64,000 nt of DNA from Defluviitalea saccharophila (lineage in GTDB: Bacteria; Bacillota; Clostridia; Lachnospirales; Defluviitaleaceae), in the NCBI RefSeq assembly GCF_038396635.1, contig NZ_CP121687.1, positions 1-64,000 on the forward strand. Reading direction: 5' to 3'. Positions 1-35,787 of this stretch are shown here, in pieces. Position numbers and translations under genes: made by a program. The first letter of the stretch is position 1; the number at the start of each line of letters is the position of its first letter. Below the pieces are notes generated by a model. That model did no database searches and was not told the origin of the DNA. It was given only the letters and a program-made list of their open reading frames with translations.

Positions 1-672
1 CAGGTACAAGAAGAGTTAGTTCGTAGAAGTAGAGGACATATAAGTACTAGCGGAAAGAAAAGAAACTTTAGTTCAAATCATGTATTTTCACAAATTATCT
101 TCTGTGGTGAGTGTGGCGAAATATACCGTAGAGTTCATTGGAATAACCGAGGTAAAAAATCGATTGTTTGGAGATGCGTCAGTAGACTTGAGAATACAGG
201 GTTAACTTGTCATTCCCGAACTGTGCTGGAGGATATGATAGGCCTTGCTACGGTGGATGCGATTAATAAACTAATAGGGCAAAAGGATGGCTTTTTAACT
301 ATCTTAAAGGAAAATATAGAAACAGTGATAAGTGAAACGGACAATAATATTGTTGCCGAGATAGATAAAAAGCTAGAGGAATTACAAAAAGATCTTTTGA
401 GACTGGCTAATTCCAAAGAAGATTATAACAACATTGCCGATGAGATTTATAGGCTCAGAGAAGAAAGGCATAAGGCTTTAGCAGAAGAAGCTGGCAAAAA
501 AGGCTCCAAGCAAAGACTAGAAGATATGGAAAAGTTCCTAAATGAACAATCCACCCTCCTTGAGGAGTATGATGAGCAACTAGTAAGGAGACTTATAGAG
601 AAAATAACGGTCTATGATGATAAACTAACTATTGAATTTAAATCTGGTATAGAAATTGATATAGAAAAATAA
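1..672 (+). CDS. Large serine recombinase, C-terminal part (5' end outside window)
   Basis: The reading frame is open from base 1 to a TAA at 670-672, so only the C-terminal 223 residues are seen. Around residues 35-75 there is a zinc beta-ribbon of the recombinase family (CGECG, then single Cys residues in WRC and TCH). A charged, helical stretch follows (about residues 115-200), as in the coiled-coil of large serine integrases. The catalytic serine domain would lie upstream. Such enzymes excise or integrate mobile elements, so a mobile element probably ends at or near the left edge of this window. The family call is secure; which element it served cannot be seen. Confidence 0.88.
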   Translation, partial: QVQEELVRRSRGHISTSGKKRNFSSNHVFSQIIFCGECGEIYRRVHWNNRGKKSIVWRCVSRLENTGLTCHSRTVLEDMIGLATVDAINKLIGQKDGFLTILKENIETVISETDNNIVAEIDKKLEELQKDLLRLANSKEDYNNIADEIYRLREERHKALAEEAGKKGSKQRLEDMEKFLNEQSTLLEEYDEQLVRRLIEKITVYDDKLTIEFKSGIEIDIEK

Positions 673-684
673 AACGAATTTGAC

Positions 685-724
685 CGCCGATTGAGGTGCA
701 GTGGCATCTTAGTCGGCGCTTTTT
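685..724 (+). terminator. Intrinsic terminator after recombinase
   Basis: CGCCGA at 685-690 pairs with TCGGCG at 713-718, with further inner pairing that includes G-T pairs. A run of T follows (720-724). It closes the recombinase transcript before the ars promoter. Confidence 0.8.
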
Positions 725-749
725 GTCGTTAACTTATTATAAAACCATA

Positions 750-805
750 TTGACAACTATCGATATGCCTGATATTCTTGTTATAAGATATCGAGAATAT
801 TCGAT
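750..805 (+). promoter_or_regulatory. ars operon promoter and ArsR operator candidate
   Basis: TTGACA at 750-755 is followed after 17 bases by TATTCT at 773-778. Just downstream, 790-805 (ATCGA, GAATAT, TCGAT) is an inverted repeat lying between the -10 box and the arsR ribosome-binding site. A dyad in this place fits autorepression by ArsR. The promoter is seen in the sequence; operator function is inferred. Confidence 0.6.
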
Positions 806-841
806 GTCATTGATACATATGAATATATAGGAGGTAATTTT

Positions 842-1177
842 ATGAAACATTCATATGCAGATTATGTTCCTGCAATTAAGGCTATGTCAGATGAAACACG
901 GTTAAAGATTATAGATATGCTATCGTGTGGAGAAATGTGCGCATGCGATATATTAGAAGAATTCAGTATTTCTCAATCCACTCTTAGTTATCATATGAAG
1001 ATATTATCTGAAAGCGGTCTTGTAAATGCAGTACGTGATGGGGCTTGGATGAGATATACATTAAACAAGGAAAAAACGGATGAGGTTATAGCTTTCTTTA
1101 CATGCATAACAAACGATAAAGAAGATTGTATTTGTAAAAAGAGCAAAAATAAAAAATCTGATAATCAATGTTGTTAA
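842..1177 (+). CDS. arsR: ArsR/SmtB-family arsenic-responsive repressor
   Basis: This 111-residue winged-helix protein represses the ars operon and releases DNA when As(III) or Sb(III) binds. The helix-turn-helix lies at about residues 45-70 (SQSTLSYHMKIL). The metal-sensing element is CGEMCACD at about residues 29-36, equivalent to the ELCVCDL motif of classical ArsR. A Cys-rich tail (DCICKK and a terminal CC) could add thiol ligands. The start is set by TAGGAGGT just upstream. It is the first gene of the ars operon and is followed 13 bases later by arsD. Confidence 0.93.
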   Translation: MKHSYADYVPAIKAMSDETRLKIIDMLSCGEMCACDILEEFSISQSTLSYHMKILSESGLVNAVRDGAWMRYTLNKEKTDEVIAFFTCITNDKEDCICKKSKNKKSDNQCC

Positions 1178-1190
1178 GGAGGATTTAGTA

Positions 1191-1550
1191 ATGAAAAATA
1201 TTGAGATTTTTGACCCAGCAATGTGTTGCTCGACAGGAGTTTGTGGACCATCTATTGACCCAGAGCTGTTAAGAGTAGCAACTGTTATTAATTCGCTTAA
1301 AGAAAAAGGGATTATTATAAAAAGGCATGGTTTGTCAAGTGAACCTCAGGATTTTATCTCCAATAAAGTTATAAGTGAAATTCTACAAAAGGAAGGAGCA
1401 GATATTCTTCCTGTAACACTGGCAGATGGTGAAATTGTAAAAACCAAAAGCTACCCAACAAACGAAGAGTTTTCAGAATGGTTAGGGGTGGAAATAAGCA
1501 CAAAACCTCAAAAGAAGAGCGGCTGCTGCGGACCAAAGGGGTGCTGTTAA
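1191..1550 (+). CDS. arsD: ArsD arsenite metallochaperone
   Basis: ArsD (119 residues, the usual length) hands As(III) to the ArsA ATPase and acts as a weak second repressor. The chaperone cysteines are visible in MCCSTGVCG at residues 11-19 (Cys12, Cys13, Cys18), and the C-terminus carries two CC pairs (GCCGPKGCC). AAGGAGG precedes the ATG. The gene is tightly packed between arsR and arsA, which starts one base after its stop, suggesting coupled translation. Confidence 0.94.
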   Translation: MKNIEIFDPAMCCSTGVCGPSIDPELLRVATVINSLKEKGIIIKRHGLSSEPQDFISNKVISEILQKEGADILPVTLADGEIVKTKSYPTNEEFSEWLGVEISTKPQKKSGCCGPKGCC

Positions 1551-1551
1551 G

Positions 1552-3324
1552 ATGTTAAAGAATAATTATGAGCCATTTAGTTTAGATGGGATAAATCTGA
1601 CTAAGTATATGTTTTTCACAGGAAAGGGTGGTGTAGGTAAAACCTCAACCGCTTGTGCTGTGGCAGTAAATTTAGCTGATAATGGAAAAAGTGTTCTCCT
1701 TATAAGCACTGATCCTGCATCCAATTTGCAGGATGTTTTTAATACTGAGCTTGATGGCAAAGGTGTGCCGATTGATGGAGTGCCGGGTTTAGTTGTGGCG
1801 AATCTTAACCCAGAGGAAGCTGCCAGAGAGTATAGGGAATCGGTTATTGCTCCATATAGGGGGAAGTTGCCGGATAGTGTAATTGTAAATATGGAGGAAC
1901 AACTCTCAGGTTCATGTACAGTTGAAATTGCCGCTTTTGACCAGTTTTCGAACTTCATCACTGATAAATCCACAGAGAATAAATACGATTATATTATTTT
2001 TGATACTGCTCCCACAGGGCACACACTTCGTATGCTGCAATTACCATCAGCCTGGAGTAATTTTATCAGTGAAAGTACACATGGGGCGTCATGTTTAGGT
2101 CAGCTCGCTGGACTTCAAGATAAAAAGGATATGTATAAGAATGCGGTTGAAAACCTTGCAGATAAAGATAAAACAACTTTGATATTGGTATCAAGGCCGG
2201 AGGAAACTCCTTTGATTGAAGCTGAACGTTCAAGCAATGAGCTTAGTGAGCTAGGGATAAACAATCAGGTTTTAGTTATCAATGGTATACTGAGTGAAGC
2301 AACTGACGATGTTTCGATTAAAATGTTAGATAAGCAGCAAAAGGCTTTGGAAAATATGCCACAGGGTTTAAAAAAGTTTAAAATTTTCACTATACCACTT
2401 CGTTCCTATAACGTTGTAGGTATTGATAATATTAAAACATTTTTATATAGTGACGATTACACAAAAAATAATTTTTATAGCAAATCCTTAAATTTAAGAC
2501 ACCTAGATGTTCTGATTGAAGATATTTATAGGGCAGGTAAAAAAGTGATATTTACAATGGGCAAAGGCGGTGTTGGAAAAACAACTATTGCTGCAACCAT
2601 TGCTGTGGCTCTTGCTAGAAAGGGTGTTAAGGTACATTTAACATCTACAGACCCAGCTAATCATCTCAAATATGTGGTTGAAGATACTGAAAATATTAAG
2701 CTAAGTAAAATAGATGAAAAGCAGGAACTATTGCGATATCAAAATGAGGTATTAAGTAAGGCTCGTGAAACAATGAGCGAAGATGATGTTGCTTATGTTG
2801 AAGAGGATTTACGCTCTCCATGCACACAGGAGATTGCAGTATTTAGAGCATTTGCTGAGATTGTTGACAAGGCTGAAAACGAAGTTGTAATAATTGATAC
2901 TGCACCAACGGGTCACACGCTTCTGTTGCTTGATTCTACACAGAGTTATCATAAAGAGGTTCAGAGAACAAAAGGTGAAACGCCAATATCTGTTCAAAGA
3001 TTACTTCCAAGACTTCGGGATGAGAAACAAACAGAGGTTATTATTGTTACATTACCTGAAGCAACACCGGTATTTGAAGCTCAGAGACTGGGTGATGACC
3101 TGAATAGAGCGGGAATTAATAACAAATGGTGGGTGGTTAATCAGTGCCTTTCATTGACGAATACTAAAAATAGTATGTTAATAGCTCGCGCTGATGCTGA
3201 AAAGCAATGGCTGGAAAAAGTTAAGCAAATAAGTTCTGATAACTTTGTTGCAATCCCCTGGTTTCAGGATGCATCAATTGAAAATATAGTGAACTTTTCT
3301 GGAGGTAGTAAAAGTGATGAATAA
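1552..3324 (+). CDS. arsA: ArsA arsenite pump-driving ATPase
   Basis: This is a full-length, duplicated ATPase (590 residues). Each half has a deviant Walker A motif GKGGVGKT (about residues 24-31 and 337-344) and a switch-like DTAPTGHT. The three As(III)-binding cysteines known from E. coli ArsA have clear counterparts: SGSCTVEIA, HGASCLGQ and RSPCTQEIA. It would power arsenite export at the membrane with cargo from ArsD. In this operon the pump is Acr3, which can also work alone, so coupling of ArsA to Acr3 is inferred from gene order. The stop overlaps the start of the next gene. Confidence 0.95.
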   Translation: MLKNNYEPFSLDGINLTKYMFFTGKGGVGKTSTACAVAVNLADNGKSVLLISTDPASNLQDVFNTELDGKGVPIDGVPGLVVANLNPEEAAREYRESVIAPYRGKLPDSVIVNMEEQLSGSCTVEIAAFDQFSNFITDKSTENKYDYIIFDTAPTGHTLRMLQLPSAWSNFISESTHGASCLGQLAGLQDKKDMYKNAVENLADKDKTTLILVSRPEETPLIEAERSSNELSELGINNQVLVINGILSEATDDVSIKMLDKQQKALENMPQGLKKFKIFTIPLRSYNVVGIDNIKTFLYSDDYTKNNFYSKSLNLRHLDVLIEDIYRAGKKVIFTMGKGGVGKTTIAATIAVALARKGVKVHLTSTDPANHLKYVVEDTENIKLSKIDEKQELLRYQNEVLSKARETMSEDDVAYVEEDLRSPCTQEIAVFRAFAEIVDKAENEVVIIDTAPTGHTLLLLDSTQSYHKEVQRTKGETPISVQRLLPRLRDEKQTEVIIVTLPEATPVFEAQRLGDDLNRAGINNKWWVVNQCLSLTNTKNSMLIARADAEKQWLEKVKQISSDNFVAIPWFQDASIENIVNFSGGSKSDE

Positions 3325-30156: not shown

Positions 30157-31444
30157 ATTAAAACTGAAATGGAAAGTTTTTATCTTCTTATTGACTTTTT
30201 GTGGATTTTTGCTCTTTATTCTTTGGCTGTTTCAAACGGTTTTTTTAAATGATATGTATAAGTTGATTAGACGAAACGAACTTCATAAAGCTATGAATCT
30301 TGTTGAAGAAAATATCAACAGTCCTGATTTTGATGATATTTTATTTCGCCTTGATGTTGAAAAAAGTATTATGGTAGTGGCTACAAGAGAATTTGTTAAG
30401 CCAAAGAACCCAACCCCAAATGGTCCGAGAGGGATACGTCCTGAGACCATTACGGAAACAAAAGAGTTTACCTTATCAAATGGAGAAAAGATTTCCCTTA
30501 CTTTTCATGCTATGATTACACCTGTAGACGCAACAGTGTCAACTCTAAAAATGCAGTTATATATTATTACTGCTATAATGATTTTGGCTTCTGTTGCCAT
30601 TGCACTTGTGCTGTCAGATGTCATTGCAAAGCCTCTTGTTCGACTGAATGAAAGTGCTAAAAAACTATCCAAGGGCAATTATAATGCGGATTTTAATGGA
30701 ACTGGATATTTAGAGGTAAAGGAGCTTTCTGATACCCTGAATTCAGCTGCAATCGAATTGTCTAAGGTGGATGAATTGCGGCGTGAGCTAATTGCAAATA
30801 TTTCACACGATTTAAGAACACCACTTGCTCTAATTTACAGCTATGCTGAAATGATGCAGGATTTTCCTGATGAAATAAGTTCTACACAGCTGCAGACTAT
30901 TATGTCAGAAACCAAGAGGCTGTCATCTCTTGTAAATGATATCCTTGATGTATCTAAACTCGAAACAGGTACAATGGAACTTCACCTGCGAAAATATAAC
31001 CTTACTGAAAGCATTGAGAAAACAGTTGAACGGCTTTCAGAACTTTTGAGAAATGACGGATATACTATAGAATTTAAGCATTCTGAAGATGCGTATGTCA
31101 TTGCAGATGAAGCAAAAATCACTCAGGCTTTATACAATTTACTAACCAACGCTGTAAACTACAGCACAGAGGACAAGCATATCATTGTGAAACAAAGCAG
31201 GGTGTACAATACTGTGAGAATCGAAGTGCATGATCATGGAGATGGCATTGCACCGGAAGACATGCCTTATATTTGGGACAGATACTATAAAGTTGACAAA
31301 AAACATAAACGGGCAATCACAGGAACGGGACTTGGGCTTTCCATCGTTAAAAAAATTTTTGAGCTTCATGGGGCAGACTATGGGGTGGAGTCTGAATTTG
31401 GTAAAGGCTCGATTTTTTGGTTTCAACTAGAATTAAAAGGATGA
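30149..31444 (+). CDS. Sensor histidine kinase
   Basis: The 431-residue membrane kinase has two helices (about residues 9-30 and 133-157) enclosing a roughly 100-residue extracytoplasmic sensor. A HAMP domain follows, then the HisKA His in NISHDLRTPLALI, the N-box NLLTNAVNYS, and G-boxes DHGDGIAPED and GTGLGLSIVKKI. ATG 30149 lies within the regulator stop region and is preceded by GGGG. The sensor contains a proline-rich loop (PKNPTPNGPRG). It would phosphorylate the preceding regulator; the stimulus is unknown. Confidence 0.93.
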   Translation: MDRLKLKWKVFIFLLTFCGFLLFILWLFQTVFLNDMYKLIRRNELHKAMNLVEENINSPDFDDILFRLDVEKSIMVVATREFVKPKNPTPNGPRGIRPETITETKEFTLSNGEKISLTFHAMITPVDATVSTLKMQLYIITAIMILASVAIALVLSDVIAKPLVRLNESAKKLSKGNYNADFNGTGYLEVKELSDTLNSAAIELSKVDELRRELIANISHDLRTPLALIYSYAEMMQDFPDEISSTQLQTIMSETKRLSSLVNDILDVSKLETGTMELHLRKYNLTESIEKTVERLSELLRNDGYTIEFKHSEDAYVIADEAKITQALYNLLTNAVNYSTEDKHIIVKQSRVYNTVRIEVHDHGDGIAPEDMPYIWDRYYKVDKKHKRAITGTGLGLSIVKKIFELHGADYGVESEFGKGSIFWFQLELKG

Positions 31445-31461
31445 ATTCGAGGAGGGGACAT

Positions 31462-32565
31462 ATGAAAATTTCAAAGAATGATGCATTAGTTTGGTTTGAC
31501 TTTTTTTCTCAACTGGACGAGGAGGAACTCAGTACAAAACATAAAGAAATCATTTATGCTACCTTTGCACAAATAGAGGCTGCAATCGATTATAGAAACG
31601 ACAGATTAATGTCTGAAATCAAAAATTTAAAAAACTTAGACAACAGAACTTATTTTGTAGGAAATGAAAAGAAATTTCCGGGAGGATGCCGTTCCTGTCT
31701 GTTAGGGACTGGTTTAAGTGCCATCAGAAAAACAAATAAATGCAATATAGAGTGTAAGTTTTGTTATAATTACGGGGAACTGGAAGATATTCCGCCGATC
31801 GGCGAAGGTATGTGGGAAATTGGGGGCACTAAGTTTTATGAAAAAGATCTTGATTTACTTCTTTCCATATACCAGAAACCTACTGGTATTGCCTATGTTT
31901 ATTTAGAACCTTTTATGGAAATAGAAAAATATTATCCGGTTATAAAGAAATTCAGCGACGCAGGGATTCATCAACATTTATATACCAATGGCACTTTGGC
32001 TACAGAGGAGAATCTTAAGGCATTAGGTGAAGCCGGTCTTGATGAAATACGTTTTAATTTAGGTGCCACGAATTGCTCAGATAAAGTGATTGAAAACATT
32101 GGAATAGCCAAAAAATACATTAAGAGTGTAGGGATAGAAACCCCAATGACGCCCGAGTTTTTCGAAAAATTCTTTGAGAAAAAACAATCCATCTTAGATA
32201 CAAAATTAGATTTTATCAATTGTGCAGAATTACATTTAAATGAAAATAACATAGACAACTATTATGGGGAAAACATGTATATATCCAGACATGGCTATAT
32301 ATCTCCCATATGGAGCAGGGAATTAACTTTGAAATTTATGAAAATAGCCGATGGAGAAAACTGGGATTTAGCAGTTCATGACTGCTCAAACTATACAAAG
32401 TTTGCCAGAGGGTTAAATCTAAGTAGTAAATCAGGCATGTGGTTTGGGGCAAGTAATTATGCCTGTGAGTTTCCCAAAATTCCATATGAGGTATTTTTAC
32501 CGATACTCAATGATGACAGTTTTGAATTTTTAAGGCTATTACTAAAATATTGTGGAGGGAATTAA
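31462..32565 (+). CDS. Radical SAM protein of unknown substrate
   Basis: The 367-residue protein has the iron-sulfur motif CNIECKFC (CxxxCxxC) at about residues 97-104, preceded by another Cys pair (GGCRSCLLG) that may hold a second site. The barrel shows IAYVYLEPFME, HLYTNGTLA and EIRFNLGA, typical of the SPASM/Elp3-like SAM fold. More Cys occur near the end. GAGGAGGGG at 31450-31458 sets ATG 31462. It starts 17 bases after the kinase gene and is probably cotranscribed. Its product is unknown. Confidence 0.88.
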   Translation: MKISKNDALVWFDFFSQLDEEELSTKHKEIIYATFAQIEAAIDYRNDRLMSEIKNLKNLDNRTYFVGNEKKFPGGCRSCLLGTGLSAIRKTNKCNIECKFCYNYGELEDIPPIGEGMWEIGGTKFYEKDLDLLLSIYQKPTGIAYVYLEPFMEIEKYYPVIKKFSDAGIHQHLYTNGTLATEENLKALGEAGLDEIRFNLGATNCSDKVIENIGIAKKYIKSVGIETPMTPEFFEKFFEKKQSILDTKLDFINCAELHLNENNIDNYYGENMYISRHGYISPIWSRELTLKFMKIADGENWDLAVHDCSNYTKFARGLNLSSKSGMWFGASNYACEFPKIPYEVFLPILNDDSFEFLRLLLKYCGGN

Positions 32566-32579
32566 TCCCAATATGCAGA

Positions 32580-32610
32580 AATGCAGGGATTAATCAAATA
32601 ACCCTGCATT
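32580..32610. terminator. Hairpin between radical SAM gene and ISL3 remnant
   Basis: AATGCAGGG (32580-32588) pairs perfectly with CCCTGCATT (32602-32610). It overlaps the last codons of the transposase on the minus strand. Confidence 0.6.
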
Positions 32611-33922
32611 AAGTGCTTTAATATATTCTTTAATTGGTACTCCATAATCCTTTGGCAAATCATTAGAGAAGTTAAATGAGTCATACATCATATGGCTAAA
32701 TGTATTGGTAGCATACTTTGGTTTTTCAACCTTATGATTAAGACAGAATAGAGCCTTTGCTCGTAGGATTTCAAAGTCATAACCTCTGCCAATACGGTCA
32801 TATTCTCTTATGAGGTTGTTTAAACCTTCTACTATGGCATTGGTAACCCTACCATCAAAGTAGTTGAAAACTTCAACCTTGAGCCTATCAATGGTTTTGG
32901 CAATATCTCTAAATTCTTTAAGGTCTTTTGGTATTGATTTCTTCCAGTTCTCATAATACTCTATAGCCTCTGACTTGGTTTTGCATTTATACATATCAAA
33001 TAAGCCTTCTTTGAGGTCGTAGGCAGTCTTTAATACTGGAAGGGTGCTAAACACCATGCGTCCCTATAAATAATGTGCGTAGGATTGAGTTTATGAGGTC
33101 TTTTGAGCAATACATACCTATCCTTCTTGAGAGTAGTGTTTTGCTTTTTAGTTAGTTTAGCCTTTTGAGCCTTTCTGATAGTGTTTAATGCTTCATTTGC
33201 CATTTTGATAACGTGATACTCGTCTATAACTACATAAGCATTTGGTAGAGCCTCATAGACTGCATCACGGTAAGGCTTCCACATATCCATAGTAACGATT
33301 TTAACGTTCTCTGGGTTCTTTAACCGTTTAAGCCATGCAACAATAGTCTCCTTATCCCTATTACGAGTGAAGTCCATAAGAGTGTTTTGTTCTCCATTTA
33401 CAAAAACACCCCTATGCTTACCTTGAATGAACAATTCATCTATGCCTAATATCATAGGTGTTTCAAGTTCAGTCTGATAGTTTGGAAGGTCTTTGATATG
33501 CTCCAAGAATATGTTTTTAATCGTGGAGTCTGATATATCCAGTTCCTTTTGTAAGGATAGGAATGTACGCTTTTCTGACTCGGTTTTAATGTACTCTATA
33601 AGTCTTATAGTCATTCTGCCTTTATTAGGAATACTTTTACATTCCTCTGTGAATATTTCGTTGCACTCCATGCACTTATAACGCTTACGTTTAAACATTA
33701 AGCCAACTCGCCTGTTGGTCATGTTAATGTCCCTTACTTCTTGAGTACGATTACTATGTACTCTTAAACGTGGCTCATAAACGCCACATAAAGGGCATAC
33801 AGAAGGTTTTTCCTTCATTGAGACGTATATTATATCCTTATATCATATTCATTGTGCTTTAAATCGGTTATAACGAATTCTGGAAGGTCTAATAACTTTT
33901 CCAGTAGTCTATGTTCTGACAT
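32590..33922 (-). pseudogene. ISL3-family transposase, frameshifted
   Basis: A full transposase can be rebuilt from three frames. The head begins at ATG 33922, with AAAGGAGG upstream, and runs to a stop near 33830. The middle (33818-33030) has the zinc finger (CPLCG, CMECNEIF) and catalytic part (LGIDELFIQGKHRG, VTMDMWKPYRDA). The tail (33057-32590) has LKTAYDLKEG and the conserved Glu region (VEGLNNLIR). About five extra bases near 33830 and one missing base near 33050 break the frame. Terminal inverted repeats were not found. The copy is dead. Confidence 0.85.
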
Positions 33923-33942
33923 ATATATTCCTCCTTTGGGAA

Positions 33943-33957
33943 GCCCCCAAAGGGGGC
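33943..33957 (-). terminator. GC-rich palindrome after the phage-like block
   Basis: GCCCCCAAAGGGGGC is a perfect palindrome just past the stop at 33962 of the leftward gene. It can form a five-to-six-pair hairpin, though no T-run follows on the minus strand. Confidence 0.45.
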
Positions 33958-33961
33958 GAGA

Positions 33962-34234
33962 TTACTTTTTAATGTCCATTATTAGGTTTGCACCATTAGT
34001 AAATCCTGCAAAGTAGCACCTTCTTGATTCATAAGCAATTATTGCACCTATTGCTTCATCAATGTCGGAAAATGCGTCAGAATCTTTAGGTAATAGAGCC
34101 TCTAATTTGTCCAGTGCTTTACCTAATTGGTCTTGAACTTGTTTGAATTCTTGTGGCTCATAATCTATAGCCCTTGTATCAATGCTCTCTTGATATTGAT
34201 AGTAGGACTCAAGAATAAGGCTATTATTTAGCAT
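33962..34234 (-). CDS. Small DUF6809-like protein
   Basis: The 90-residue acidic, helical protein has a central KLEALLPKD helix and ends with AIIAYESRRCYFAGFTNGAN. This resembles small DUF6809-type proteins found in clostridial phages and plasmids; the match is from memory and tentative. Its start overlaps the end of the antirepressor gene by seven bases, so it belongs to the same leftward operon. The function is unknown. Confidence 0.55.
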   Translation of the reverse strand: MLNNSLILESYYQYQESIDTRAIDYEPQEFKQVQDQLGKALDKLEALLPKDSDAFSDIDEAIGAIIAYESRRCYFAGFTNGANLIMDIKK

Positions 34235-35115
34235 GATACAGCCACCTCCTTGTTGTAAGTAACCTTAAAGGTCTTACCGTTGCTTACAATTTCAGCAGGG
34301 AAGGCATTATCATTAATCCATTGTCTAACTTTATCAATAACTGACTTGGTATATTGGGTTGTAGTGCCAACATGACCATGTCGTTCGTAGGTTACAGTTT
34401 CCTTTTCAGTATCAGCAATATCAAGTTTTGACAGTATTGCATTTACTGCTTGTGCATGAGGCTTATTACTACTGGAATAGATACCAACAGCCTGTGCTAT
34501 ACCTTGAAGGTCAAATAACTCTCTATCAGCCTTAATTTCCTCTATAGGGAGTTCAATGCCACCTTTGCGATATATCTGTTTAAGAGCCATAGCCTTGTAT
34601 TGAGCCTTTAAGCCTATTTCCTCAAAGATAGGTAGCATAATCTTTGCAGTATCATTCAATGTGGTTAGGCTTTCGAGTTCATCAGCCTTTGCTCTTAAAT
34701 GCTCTGGGTTAGCATTATTGCTTATATAAGCACCAGTTTGACGAATTTCTGGGAGTACATCTCTACGAAGTCATTTCCTGAATGATACTCCTATAGGCTT
34801 ATCAGTGTATTGAAGAAAGCCATATAAGCCATCTTCATAGAAGATTGTAAGGTTAGCAGTATTTTGACTGACCAATTTTACTTTGGTCAGTGAGTTGACC
34901 ATCTTCTTGAAGGCTTTTAAATCGTCTTTAAGAAGTATCTCATATTCAACACCAGTTTCAAACTGCTCTGCCTCAATACATTGACCTATTGTAGTTGATG
35001 GGTCAGCATAACCAAACATAGATACTATTTCGTTGGCTATCCAACAAAGTTTATTGTTCCAAACAAATGTATGGATTTCATTACCGTTAAATTCCTTAAC
35101 TATAAGGTTATTCAT
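34228..35115 (-). pseudogene. ant: Phage antirepressor (BRO-N/Ant type) with one in-frame TGA
   Basis: The first 114 codons (ATG 35115, GGAGGAAAT upstream) form a BRO-N-like domain (FNGNEIHTFVWNNKLCWIA, GYADPSTTI) and end at TGA (34771-34773) right after SFRK. Translation in the same frame continues with LRRDVLPEIRQTG, linking helices and a C-terminal DNA-binding part (to 34228), all typical of phage antirepressors. The consensus at the break is FRKW or FRRW, so TGG became TGA. The second half has no ribosome-binding site. Such proteins inactivate phage repressors. Confidence 0.82.
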
Positions 35116-35139
35116 TATATTTCCTCCTTTTAATCACCC

Positions 35140-35156
35140 AAGGAGTATGCTATAAT
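35140..35156 (+). promoter_or_regulatory. Extended -10 promoter on the plus strand
   Basis: TATGCTATAAT (35146-35156) contains an extended -10 element (TG, one base, TATAAT). No good -35 is seen. CACCCAAGGA (from about 35136) and TCCTTTGGGTG (35169-35179) form an inverted repeat around it, which may be a regulator site. Confidence 0.5.
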
Positions 35157-35162
35157 GAATAT

Positions 35163-35239
35163 GCAATATCCTTTGGGTGTTGTTGGTTTAGGAAGTCCGT
35201 ACAGTCGCCAAACTTGAGACGGGCTTCCTATTATTTTTT
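35163..35239 (+). ncRNA. Candidate small RNA opposite the repressor-antirepressor junction
   Basis: From the extended -10 at 35151-35156 a transcript would start near 35163 and end at a strong terminator: TAGGAAGTCCGT (35189-35200) pairs over 12 bases, one being G-T, with ACGGGCTTCCTA (35219-35230), followed by TTATTTTTT. The T-run is present only on this strand, so the hairpin terminates rightward RNA. The RNA of about 77 bases is antisense to the spacer between the RHH gene and the antirepressor gene. Expression is not shown. Confidence 0.5.
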
Positions 35240-35413
35240 GATTTTCTTGACACTCAATTTTACTTCCTTTTCGATTTGAAAATCACCGTTGATATAACCC
35301 GTCATAAATGCTTCTAAAACATCATTCATGGTTACTTCATTCTTTGCACAGGTTGCTTTAAATTCTTTTTGAATATCTTCATCAATGGTTGTGGTAAATT
35401 GTTTTCTTGGCAC
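35231..35413 (-). CDS. Ribbon-helix-helix (Arc-like) DNA-binding protein
   Basis: The 60-residue protein has the RHH pattern: an N-terminal strand with alternating residues (RKQFTTTIDEDIQ), helix A (KEFKATCAKN) and helix B after the turn (TMNDVLEAFMTGYI), then a basic tail. A GTG start is preceded by AAGGAGGTG. Its own promoter is covered by a long inverted repeat, fitting autorepression. It lies directly upstream of the antirepressor gene on the same strand, like arc before ant in phage P22. Confidence 0.82.
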   Translation of the reverse strand: MPRKQFTTTIDEDIQKEFKATCAKNEVTMNDVLEAFMTGYINGDFQIEKEVKLSVKKIKK

Positions 35414-35425
35414 TTAATCACCTCC

Positions 35426-35462
35426 TTGACAATATATTAATCTACTTAAATATATTTGTCAA
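35426..35462 (-). promoter_or_regulatory. Promoter and palindromic operator of the RHH gene
   Basis: On the minus strand TTGACA (35462-35457), a 17-base spacer and TAATAT (35439-35434) form a strong promoter. The same bases are an inverted repeat: TTGACAATATATTAA on one side and its near complement ending TTTGTCAA on the other, covering both promoter boxes. Repressor binding here would block transcription of the whole leftward operon. Confidence 0.75.
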
Positions 35463-35501
35463 AACATTTGTGAAGATATTTGTTGAATTAATTTAAAACA
35501 T

Positions 35502-35526
35502 AAAAAAAGACTATCTAAAATAGTCT
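35502..35526 (-). terminator. Leftward intrinsic terminator
   Basis: AGACTAT (35508-35514) pairs with ATAGTCT (35520-35526). Read on the minus strand it is followed by seven T. It would stop leftward transcription entering from beyond 35530. The flanking spacer 35530-35787 has no gene, only a short decayed frame (EELPDEYKPE) near 35607-35650. Confidence 0.65.
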
Positions 35527-35787
35527 AAACTGCAAGATTATTAAATTAAACTTTCATACCAATTTTTAACACCACAATAATTTAGGAATAACCATTTTTA
35601 ACCGAGGAAGAGTTACCAGATGAATATAAACCAGAATTAATGAATTACTAAAATTTTGGTGCCTGTTAGTCTATTTTCCACCTTTCCACATTTGAATGCA
35701 TAACCTCTTATTCATTATAATGATAATGGAATATGAAGGTTGAAAGGTTTCATTGAATAGGTAAATGTTTAATATGAGGGGGATGGT

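Follow-up and report, generated by a model that had tools for sequence, protein, structure and literature searches.

Control of an antirepressor by antisense RNA is known from phages P22 and P1/P7. In the immI region of P22 the order is arc-sar-ant, and the sar RNA covers the ribosome site of ant; the C4 RNA of P1/P7 and ant are transcribed from one strand, and C4 is then processed. Antisense RNAs also act on the replication genes of plasmids. In pT181, stem-loop IV, in which the ribosome site lies, can form once RNAI has bound; without RNAI its 5' arm pairs with a pre-emptor sequence (in the account given in PMC5703833). The stem induced in pSK41 hides the ribosome site and thereby acts on translation (PMC5703833). 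The copG-rnaII-repB region of pMV158 and pE194 has a ribbon-helix-helix (RHH) gene, an opposite-strand RNA, and an effector, giving two-lock control; RNAII of pMV158 acts beside an atypical ribosome site through its 5' tail, and the available portions of PMC4485353 and PMC5703833 describe no Shine-Dalgarno (SD) switch for it.

The locus considered here lies in a 64,000-nt stretch of the Defluviitalea saccharophila genome (contig NZ_CP121687.1, positions 1 to 64,000, forward strand; called the window), and its features are collected in Table 1. On the minus strand the order is RHH gene, 115-bp spacer, ant frame, DUF6809 gene, and ISL3-family transposase. The best explanation, which is held to be probable, is an ISL3-borne RHH-ant cargo with a pre-emptor switch worked by antisense RNA.

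Table 1. Features of the transposon and its RHH-ant cargo, with positions in the window
Feature	Position	Strand	Basis
8-bp target duplication, left copy, ATTTTTAA	32526..32533	.	identical to 35594-35601
Left terminal inverted repeat, 22 bp, GGCTATTACTAAAATATTGTGG	32534..32555	+	19/22 identical to reverse complement of 35572-35593
ISL3-family transposase, two overlapping frames (33030-33818 and 32590-33057)	32590..33818	-	Pfam DDE_Tnp_ISL3
DUF6809 small protein, last cargo gene	33962..34234	-	Pfam PF20648, E 1e-5, just under cut-off
ant, BRO-N antirepressor of phrog_2011 kind, in-frame TGA at 34771-34773	34228..35115	-	profile and homologues
SD of ant, AAGGAGG on mRNA	35123..35129	-	sequence
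mRNA hairpin 2, -17.9 kcal/mol; 5' arm (about 35158-35179) is the predicted pre-emptor under the antisense RNA	35135..35179	-	folding
Anti-SD CTCCTT on mRNA	35140..35145	-	pairs in hairpin 2 or with SD
Extended -10 TGCTATAAT of antisense promoter	35148..35156	+	sequence; block common to L180 and L041
Predicted antisense RNA, about 75 nt	35163..35239	+	5' hairpin, terminator hairpin, T-tail; start inferred from -10
Terminator hairpin, 12 pairs, T35189-A35230 (hairpin 1 on mRNA)	35189..35230	+	sequence, folding
RHH (Arc/CopG-like) repressor gene	35231..35413	-	phrog_3180 'Arc-like repressor', E 2e-10
Sigma-A-like promoter of RHH-ant operon, TTGACA-17-TAATAT	35434..35462	-	sequence
Right terminal inverted repeat, 22 bp, reverse complement GGTTATTCCTAAATTATTGTGG	35572..35593	-	pairs with left repeat
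8-bp target duplication, right copy, ATTTTTAA	35594..35601	.	perfect match to left copy

An Arc-like RHH gene ahead of a BRO/Ant-type gene on the minus strand had been predicted from the sequence, and the profile matches agree with this. The RHH product is placed in the Arc/CopG group through phrog_3180; its Pfam match to ParG (E 0.0014) is below the cut-off. A palindromic operator ahead of the RHH gene is clear in four relatives (L011, L054, L056, and L064), and in the window none stands above shuffled sequence. The N-terminal half of ant (34771-35115, minus strand) matches Bro-N (E 1.6e-5), and the same frame runs on to 34228 past the TGA. Homologues in L041 and L011 match phrog_2011 (E 1e-77 and 2e-130, respectively), and the homologues, which are 287-297 residues long and include intact relatives, read through the TGA position; ant of the window is thus one gene of ~290 codons broken by a nonsense codon. 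The module does contain the antirepressor frame that was predicted, but in a broken copy, and so the device may control nothing here and may be a relic. The DUF6809 gene has a weak counterpart in L041.

The module was originally taken to be a prophage module like P22 immI. Comparison of sequences, by terminal repeats and target duplication, places it instead within a 3,060-bp ISL3-family transposon (32534-35593). The 8 bp of the duplication are the usual length for ISL3. Both transposase frames match DDE_Tnp_ISL3 (E 6e-36 and 3e-21), are separated by one frame break near 33051, and share 56-59% identity with the L041 transposase, which is open. When the empty site is read through, the open C-terminus of a radical-SAM gene is restored (Radical_SAM match). 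The element, present in one copy in its own genome, has decayed, with the frame break in the transposase and the stop codon in ant. Judged by its sequence, then, the locus is an ISL3-family transposon near the 3' end of a radical-SAM gene, and its cargo consists of the RHH gene, the antirepressor, and the DUF6809 gene. A prophage remnant is ruled out, since no further phage genes adjoin and the terminal repeats and target duplication bound the module. The radical-SAM gene (31417-32565) is cut at its 3' end by the element, whose end supplies a new stop, leaving a product of 382 aa with an altered C-terminus.

A second ISL3 element of the same kind, L041, has related ends at contig base 1 and at about 3069; it carries an HTH_17 gene replacing RHH, the spacer RNA, an intact ant, a DUF6809-like gene, and an open transposase. 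This clostridial-type transposon (1-3069), which is inserted in a ComEC-like gene, lies on a contig assigned to an archaeal MAG (Candidatus Methanomethylicia), probably through mis-binning. In a third genome, L180 has the left-end sequence and the cassette in common with the window element together with a different RHH gene; no transposase was seen within the stretch of L180 examined.

The RHH-ant spacer holds a plus-strand RNA candidate, which would be transcribed from an extended -10 promoter and end at a 12-pair terminator; both of these predicted signals are confirmed, and the RNA would be about 75 nt long. No good -35 element is present upstream of the extended -10 TGCTATAAT. In C. difficile, TGNTATAAT promoters lie upstream of 245 mapped starts (PMC7438776). 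The T-tail TTATTTTTT follows the stem directly on the plus strand (35231-35239), and on the sense side the stem runs into AACC with no T-run, so that the terminator would act in the plus direction only. The plus strand from 35158 to 35240 folds at -28.5 kcal/mol, compared with -15.7 (sd 3.0) for shuffled sequences, of which 0/200 are as low. Taken alone, TGNTATAAT is unremarkable in the window (10 found vs 6.8 expected); the case rises above chance because the arrangement recurs at many independent loci with changed yet complementary stems. Both main promoter types have the extended -10 in a matching position, as do L041, L180, and the Streptococcus and Fusobacterium phages, the versions of this element across families being TGCTATAAT, TGTTATAAT, TGATAGAAT, TGATACAAT, and TGATATAAT; at the Clostridioides type 1 loci the antisense promoters are less clear. 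In the relatives the T-tail follows the stem on the antisense strand only, and the sense side is not T-rich. Hairpin and T-run are thus kept together, the loss of the T-run having been named beforehand as the sign of a plain mRNA structure. As was also foreseen, the RNA would start past the ant ribosome site, about 30 nt from the SD, and run away from it; consequently, it cannot act by covering this site as P22 sar does.

In the mechanism proposed, repression of the RHH-ant operon promoter by the RHH protein would be a first lock, and the ~75-nt RNA, made constitutively off the opposite strand of the spacer, a second. In free mRNA, hairpin 2 would hold the anti-SD in its 3' arm, leaving the ant SD open. 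Once the antisense RNA had paired both with hairpin 1 and with the pre-emptor, which is the 5' arm of hairpin 2, the anti-SD would be released, pair with the SD, and turn off ant translation. Folding of the window leader behaves in this way: with the bases under the antisense RNA blocked, SD opening requires 9.0 rather than 2.0 kcal/mol (+7.0), a rise that in shuffles of the intervening sequence is -0.4 (sd 1.3; 0/100 as high). Among 31 leaders, which include close variants, 30 show a rise of +2.6 to +9.7 kcal/mol; the sole exception is L083, which has an insert before the SD and no switch. A pT181-like leader, used as a control, gives +9.0 kcal/mol. Blocking of hairpin 1 alone has little effect in the window and in most promoter-type-2 leaders. 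These energies are thermodynamic only and depend on an inferred start of the antisense RNA. In the computed folds the antisense-covered region competes with the SD-hiding stem, which supports a pT181/pSK41-type pre-emptor switch at the RHH-ant spacer; antisense binding, an effect on translation, and a biological use would be what this model predicts. The likely use would be zero leak of the antirepressor, yet a burst when repressors are absent, for example on reaching a naive cell or following induction. The logic of the device would match plasmid copy control as known from pT181, pSK41, and pMV158 (order CopG-RNAII-RepB), except that an antirepressor takes the place of Rep.

The stems covary among the relatives. 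In 16 aligned hairpins, 97.5% of cells are paired, compared with 69% in shuffles, and the covariation score is 0.84, compared with 0.27 in shuffles (0/500) and at most 0.20 in slid controls. For 25 distinct arm pairs, pairing reaches 99% between own partners and 54% after partners are swapped (0/5000 permutations), although the arms were picked by the analyst as stems, which favours the own-partner value. Anti-SD and SD also change together, as in CTCTTTC with GAAAGGG (L055), CTTCTTTCAAA with TTTGAGGAGG (L056), and CTTCTTTG with CAAAGGAG (Streptococcus).

The original prediction had pointed to P22 sar as the parallel of this RNA; its nearest kin appears to be plasmid ctRNA (pT181, RF00242). 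The Rfam model ctRNA_pT181 (RF00242) matches the antisense strand of L041 at 45.8 bits (E 4e-4), Streptococcus phage Javan197 at 34.4 bits, a Clostridioides phage at 33.6, and others at 32-34; these matches fall exactly on the spacer RNA and, at 32-46 bits, lie below the gathering score of 56. The window RNA itself gives no match to RF00242 up to E 5, and thus none at the gathering score. A pT181-like plasmid leader contains CTGACCAAAGTTTG and GATTCCTTAAACGAAATTGAGATTAAGGAGT, and Clostridioides loci contain CCGACCAAAGTTTG and CATTCCTTAAAAAATTTCAATTAAGGAGT; common to both are the loop CTGACCAAAGTTTG and an SD stem, ATTCCTT...AAGGAGT. On the antisense strand the loop CAAACUUUGGUC is found in most relatives and is replaced by TACAGTCGCCAAACTTGAGA in the window, where, as in L170, a U-turn-like loop motif (TTTGGCGAC) lies on the mRNA strand and not on the antisense strand. 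A hairpin model (R1) built without the window RNA gives this RNA 21.9 bits, the top score in the window; since ordinary terminators of the same genome reach up to 31 bits with R1, this match lends weak support. The tie is L180, where the window's promoter/hairpin-2 block TATTCATTATAGCATACTCC stands beside a pT181-type loop, in a cassette upstream of an Ant with the C-terminal domain of the window Ant; because L180 joins the two, the window RNA can be linked to the pT181-like family. The likeness of loop and SD stem makes common descent of the cassette RNA and pT181 ctRNA likelier than chance, while convergence is a possible alternative for sequences so short.

Set beside P22 immI, the locus has an RHH repressor, an opposite-strand RNA, and an antirepressor, a likeness by description, but unlike sar the window RNA would start some 30 nt past the SD and leave the ribosome site uncovered. 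With C4 RNA (RF01695) of P1/P7 immI it would have antisense control of an antirepressor in common, and there is no Rfam match of RF01695 in the window. Like the pT181 ctRNA/repC leader, the cassette would combine an antisense RNA with a terminator hairpin, pre-emptor logic, and an SD in the induced stem, and its Clostridioides relatives add the loop CAAACUUUGGUC and the SD stem; unlike it, the downstream gene is an antirepressor rather than RepC, and the window has a different loop and no T-run after the SD stem. The pSK41 RNAI-rep leader, likened by description, is similar in that a stem formed upon antisense binding masks the ribosome site and affects translation (as PMC5703833 describes it); there, however, a replication initiator is controlled, by an antisense RNA of other sequence and length. 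With pMV158 and pE194 the likeness lies in the two-lock order, of which the window has the first two members (RHH gene, antisense RNA) followed by ant, whereas the plasmid effector is Rep (PMC4485353, PMC5703833).

Further examples of the cassette, made up of small repressor, opposite-strand RNA, and antirepressor operon, come from gut-metagenome phages and from phages of Clostridioides, Streptococcus, and Fusobacterium. A search for RHH-spacer-Ant sets in clostridial prophages, which had been proposed as a check, finds them in Clostridioides with hairpin and opposite-strand T-tail kept; the same spacer precedes nearly all Clostridioides prophage homologues of Ant, and also antirepressors that share the C-terminal domain only. 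The antisense promoter core of one type, used as a scan pattern, located the cassette in more Clostridioides and gut-metagenome phages, and extension by BLAST added Fusobacterium phage phiFN37 and Streptococcus phages Javan197, Javan119, Javan326, and others. The gene upstream of the spacer is mostly RHH; it is HTH_17 in L041 and L008, and an RHH gene is absent ahead of the spacer in L057 and L061. Downstream lies either an antirepressor or small genes and then an antirepressor. Counted as negatives are L050 (a Flavonifractor phage), with ant but no antisense spacer, and L009, with a hairpin but no T-tail. The pattern TTCATTATARCA..ACTCCT gave nothing but chance matches in viral_contigs, and CATTATAGCATACTCC, searched in class genomes, gave one chance match (L189). 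Candidates L178, L181, and L184 were not accepted as antirepressor cassettes, hairpin model R1 being too short to be specific.

Other explanations of the spacer can be weighed against these data. Regulation of the P22 sar type, in which the RNA occludes the ribosome site directly, or acts through transcription interference plus RNase III, with no switch, would fit the immI-like order of small RHH repressor, opposite-strand RNA, and ant. It is unlikely, however, in view of the position and direction of the RNA, which are the same in every relative, and of the anti-SD:SD stem, which recurs in leaders of differing sequence and for which direct occlusion has no need. Somewhat more doubtful still is the view that the hairpins are mRNA structures only, serving processing or stability of the RHH-ant operon, with the opposite promoter and T-tail incidental. 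The mRNA strand does fold well too (z -4.1), and TGNTATAAT by itself is not rare in the window, but the relatives keep the T-tail on the opposite strand with no T-rich sense side, the extended -10 stands at the same place in different families, and it is the antisense strand that an Rfam antisense ctRNA model matches.

A switch of the pre-emptor kind could also work mainly by transcription attenuation, as known for pT181 and pIP501, in which transcripts end at the SD stem, with translation secondary. Several leaders (Streptococcus phages, L072, and L061) have 5-7 T after the SD stem, and pT181 works in this way according to PMC5703833; the T-run is nevertheless absent from the window, where GAAATATAATG follows the SD, and from the main Clostridioides type (AAGGAGGAAATATAATG; AAGGAGTGTAATAG), making attenuation as the main effect rather improbable. 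Under the preferred reading, an SD switch acting on translation, the relatives with a T-run would perhaps add transcription termination as in pT181, and the window would not. That the plus strand encodes a small protein of 20 codons from 35155 is barely credible: its frame is open and AAGGAG lies nine bases before the ATG, yet the frame is not conserved in L041, L054, and the Clostridioides type 1 leaders, and the ATG overlaps the -10 and so would fall outside the RNA. A sense-strand leader peptide (ATGAAATATTCTATC in many leaders, ATGAACAATCC in L041) was rejected, as Clostridioides alleles have no SD for it and the frame is broken in L055, L056, and L058; the antisense promoter and the pre-emptor arm account better for these sequences.

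If the antisense-RNA switch is as proposed, it would be a third, unrelated solution to antirepressor control, used in phages of Clostridia, streptococci, and fusobacteria and borne by a transposon as well, and its control device would be borrowed from, or shared with, plasmid copy-number control. It would explain why a conserved spacer recurs before antirepressor operons, and would mean that one regulatory cassette swaps its output (Rep, antirepressor, or protease-antirepressor operon) between kinds of mobile element, offering a well-understood switch to probe in the lysogeny decisions of these phages. In open-licence PMC papers no description of such an RNA for antirepressors was found, an absence that is not proof of novelty. 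More speculatively, and with little probability, ctRNA plus a small-repressor lock could form a portable "silent until entry" device across rolling-circle plasmids, phages, and transposons; ISL3 transposons carrying it together with an antirepressor would then, on arrival in a new cell, express the antirepressor zygotically, thereby inducing a prophage already resident there and leaving along with it.

Several features of the relatives may be noted. In L064, from 10444 onward, the leader is followed by an IrrE/ImmA-type protease (Peptidase_M78) and then by an AntA-ANT antirepressor, under the same lock. Clostridioides prophages often have two tandem cassettes 2-2.7 kb apart (L113, L133, L148, L150, L159, and others), in which the N-terminal Ant domains differ and the C-terminal domain is common. 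A block, GGTCGGTTGAGTAAAATAAT, is conserved upstream of many Clostridioides cassettes (for example, near 5596 in L051); it was found in a single orientation, so that a repeat pair is not evident. In Javan197, Javan119, and Javan326 (L167-L169) the cassette sits among late genes (hyaluronidase or capsid), outside the usual lysogeny region. CRISPR repeat arrays (CRISPR-DR3, CRISPR-DR14) are close to several Clostridioides cassettes (L053, L054, L056, and L058). Finally, the antisense strand of L181 has, near 1501, a ctRNA-like hairpin with an CCGACCAAAG loop upstream of a possible primase; the ctRNA-like family may have further output genes.
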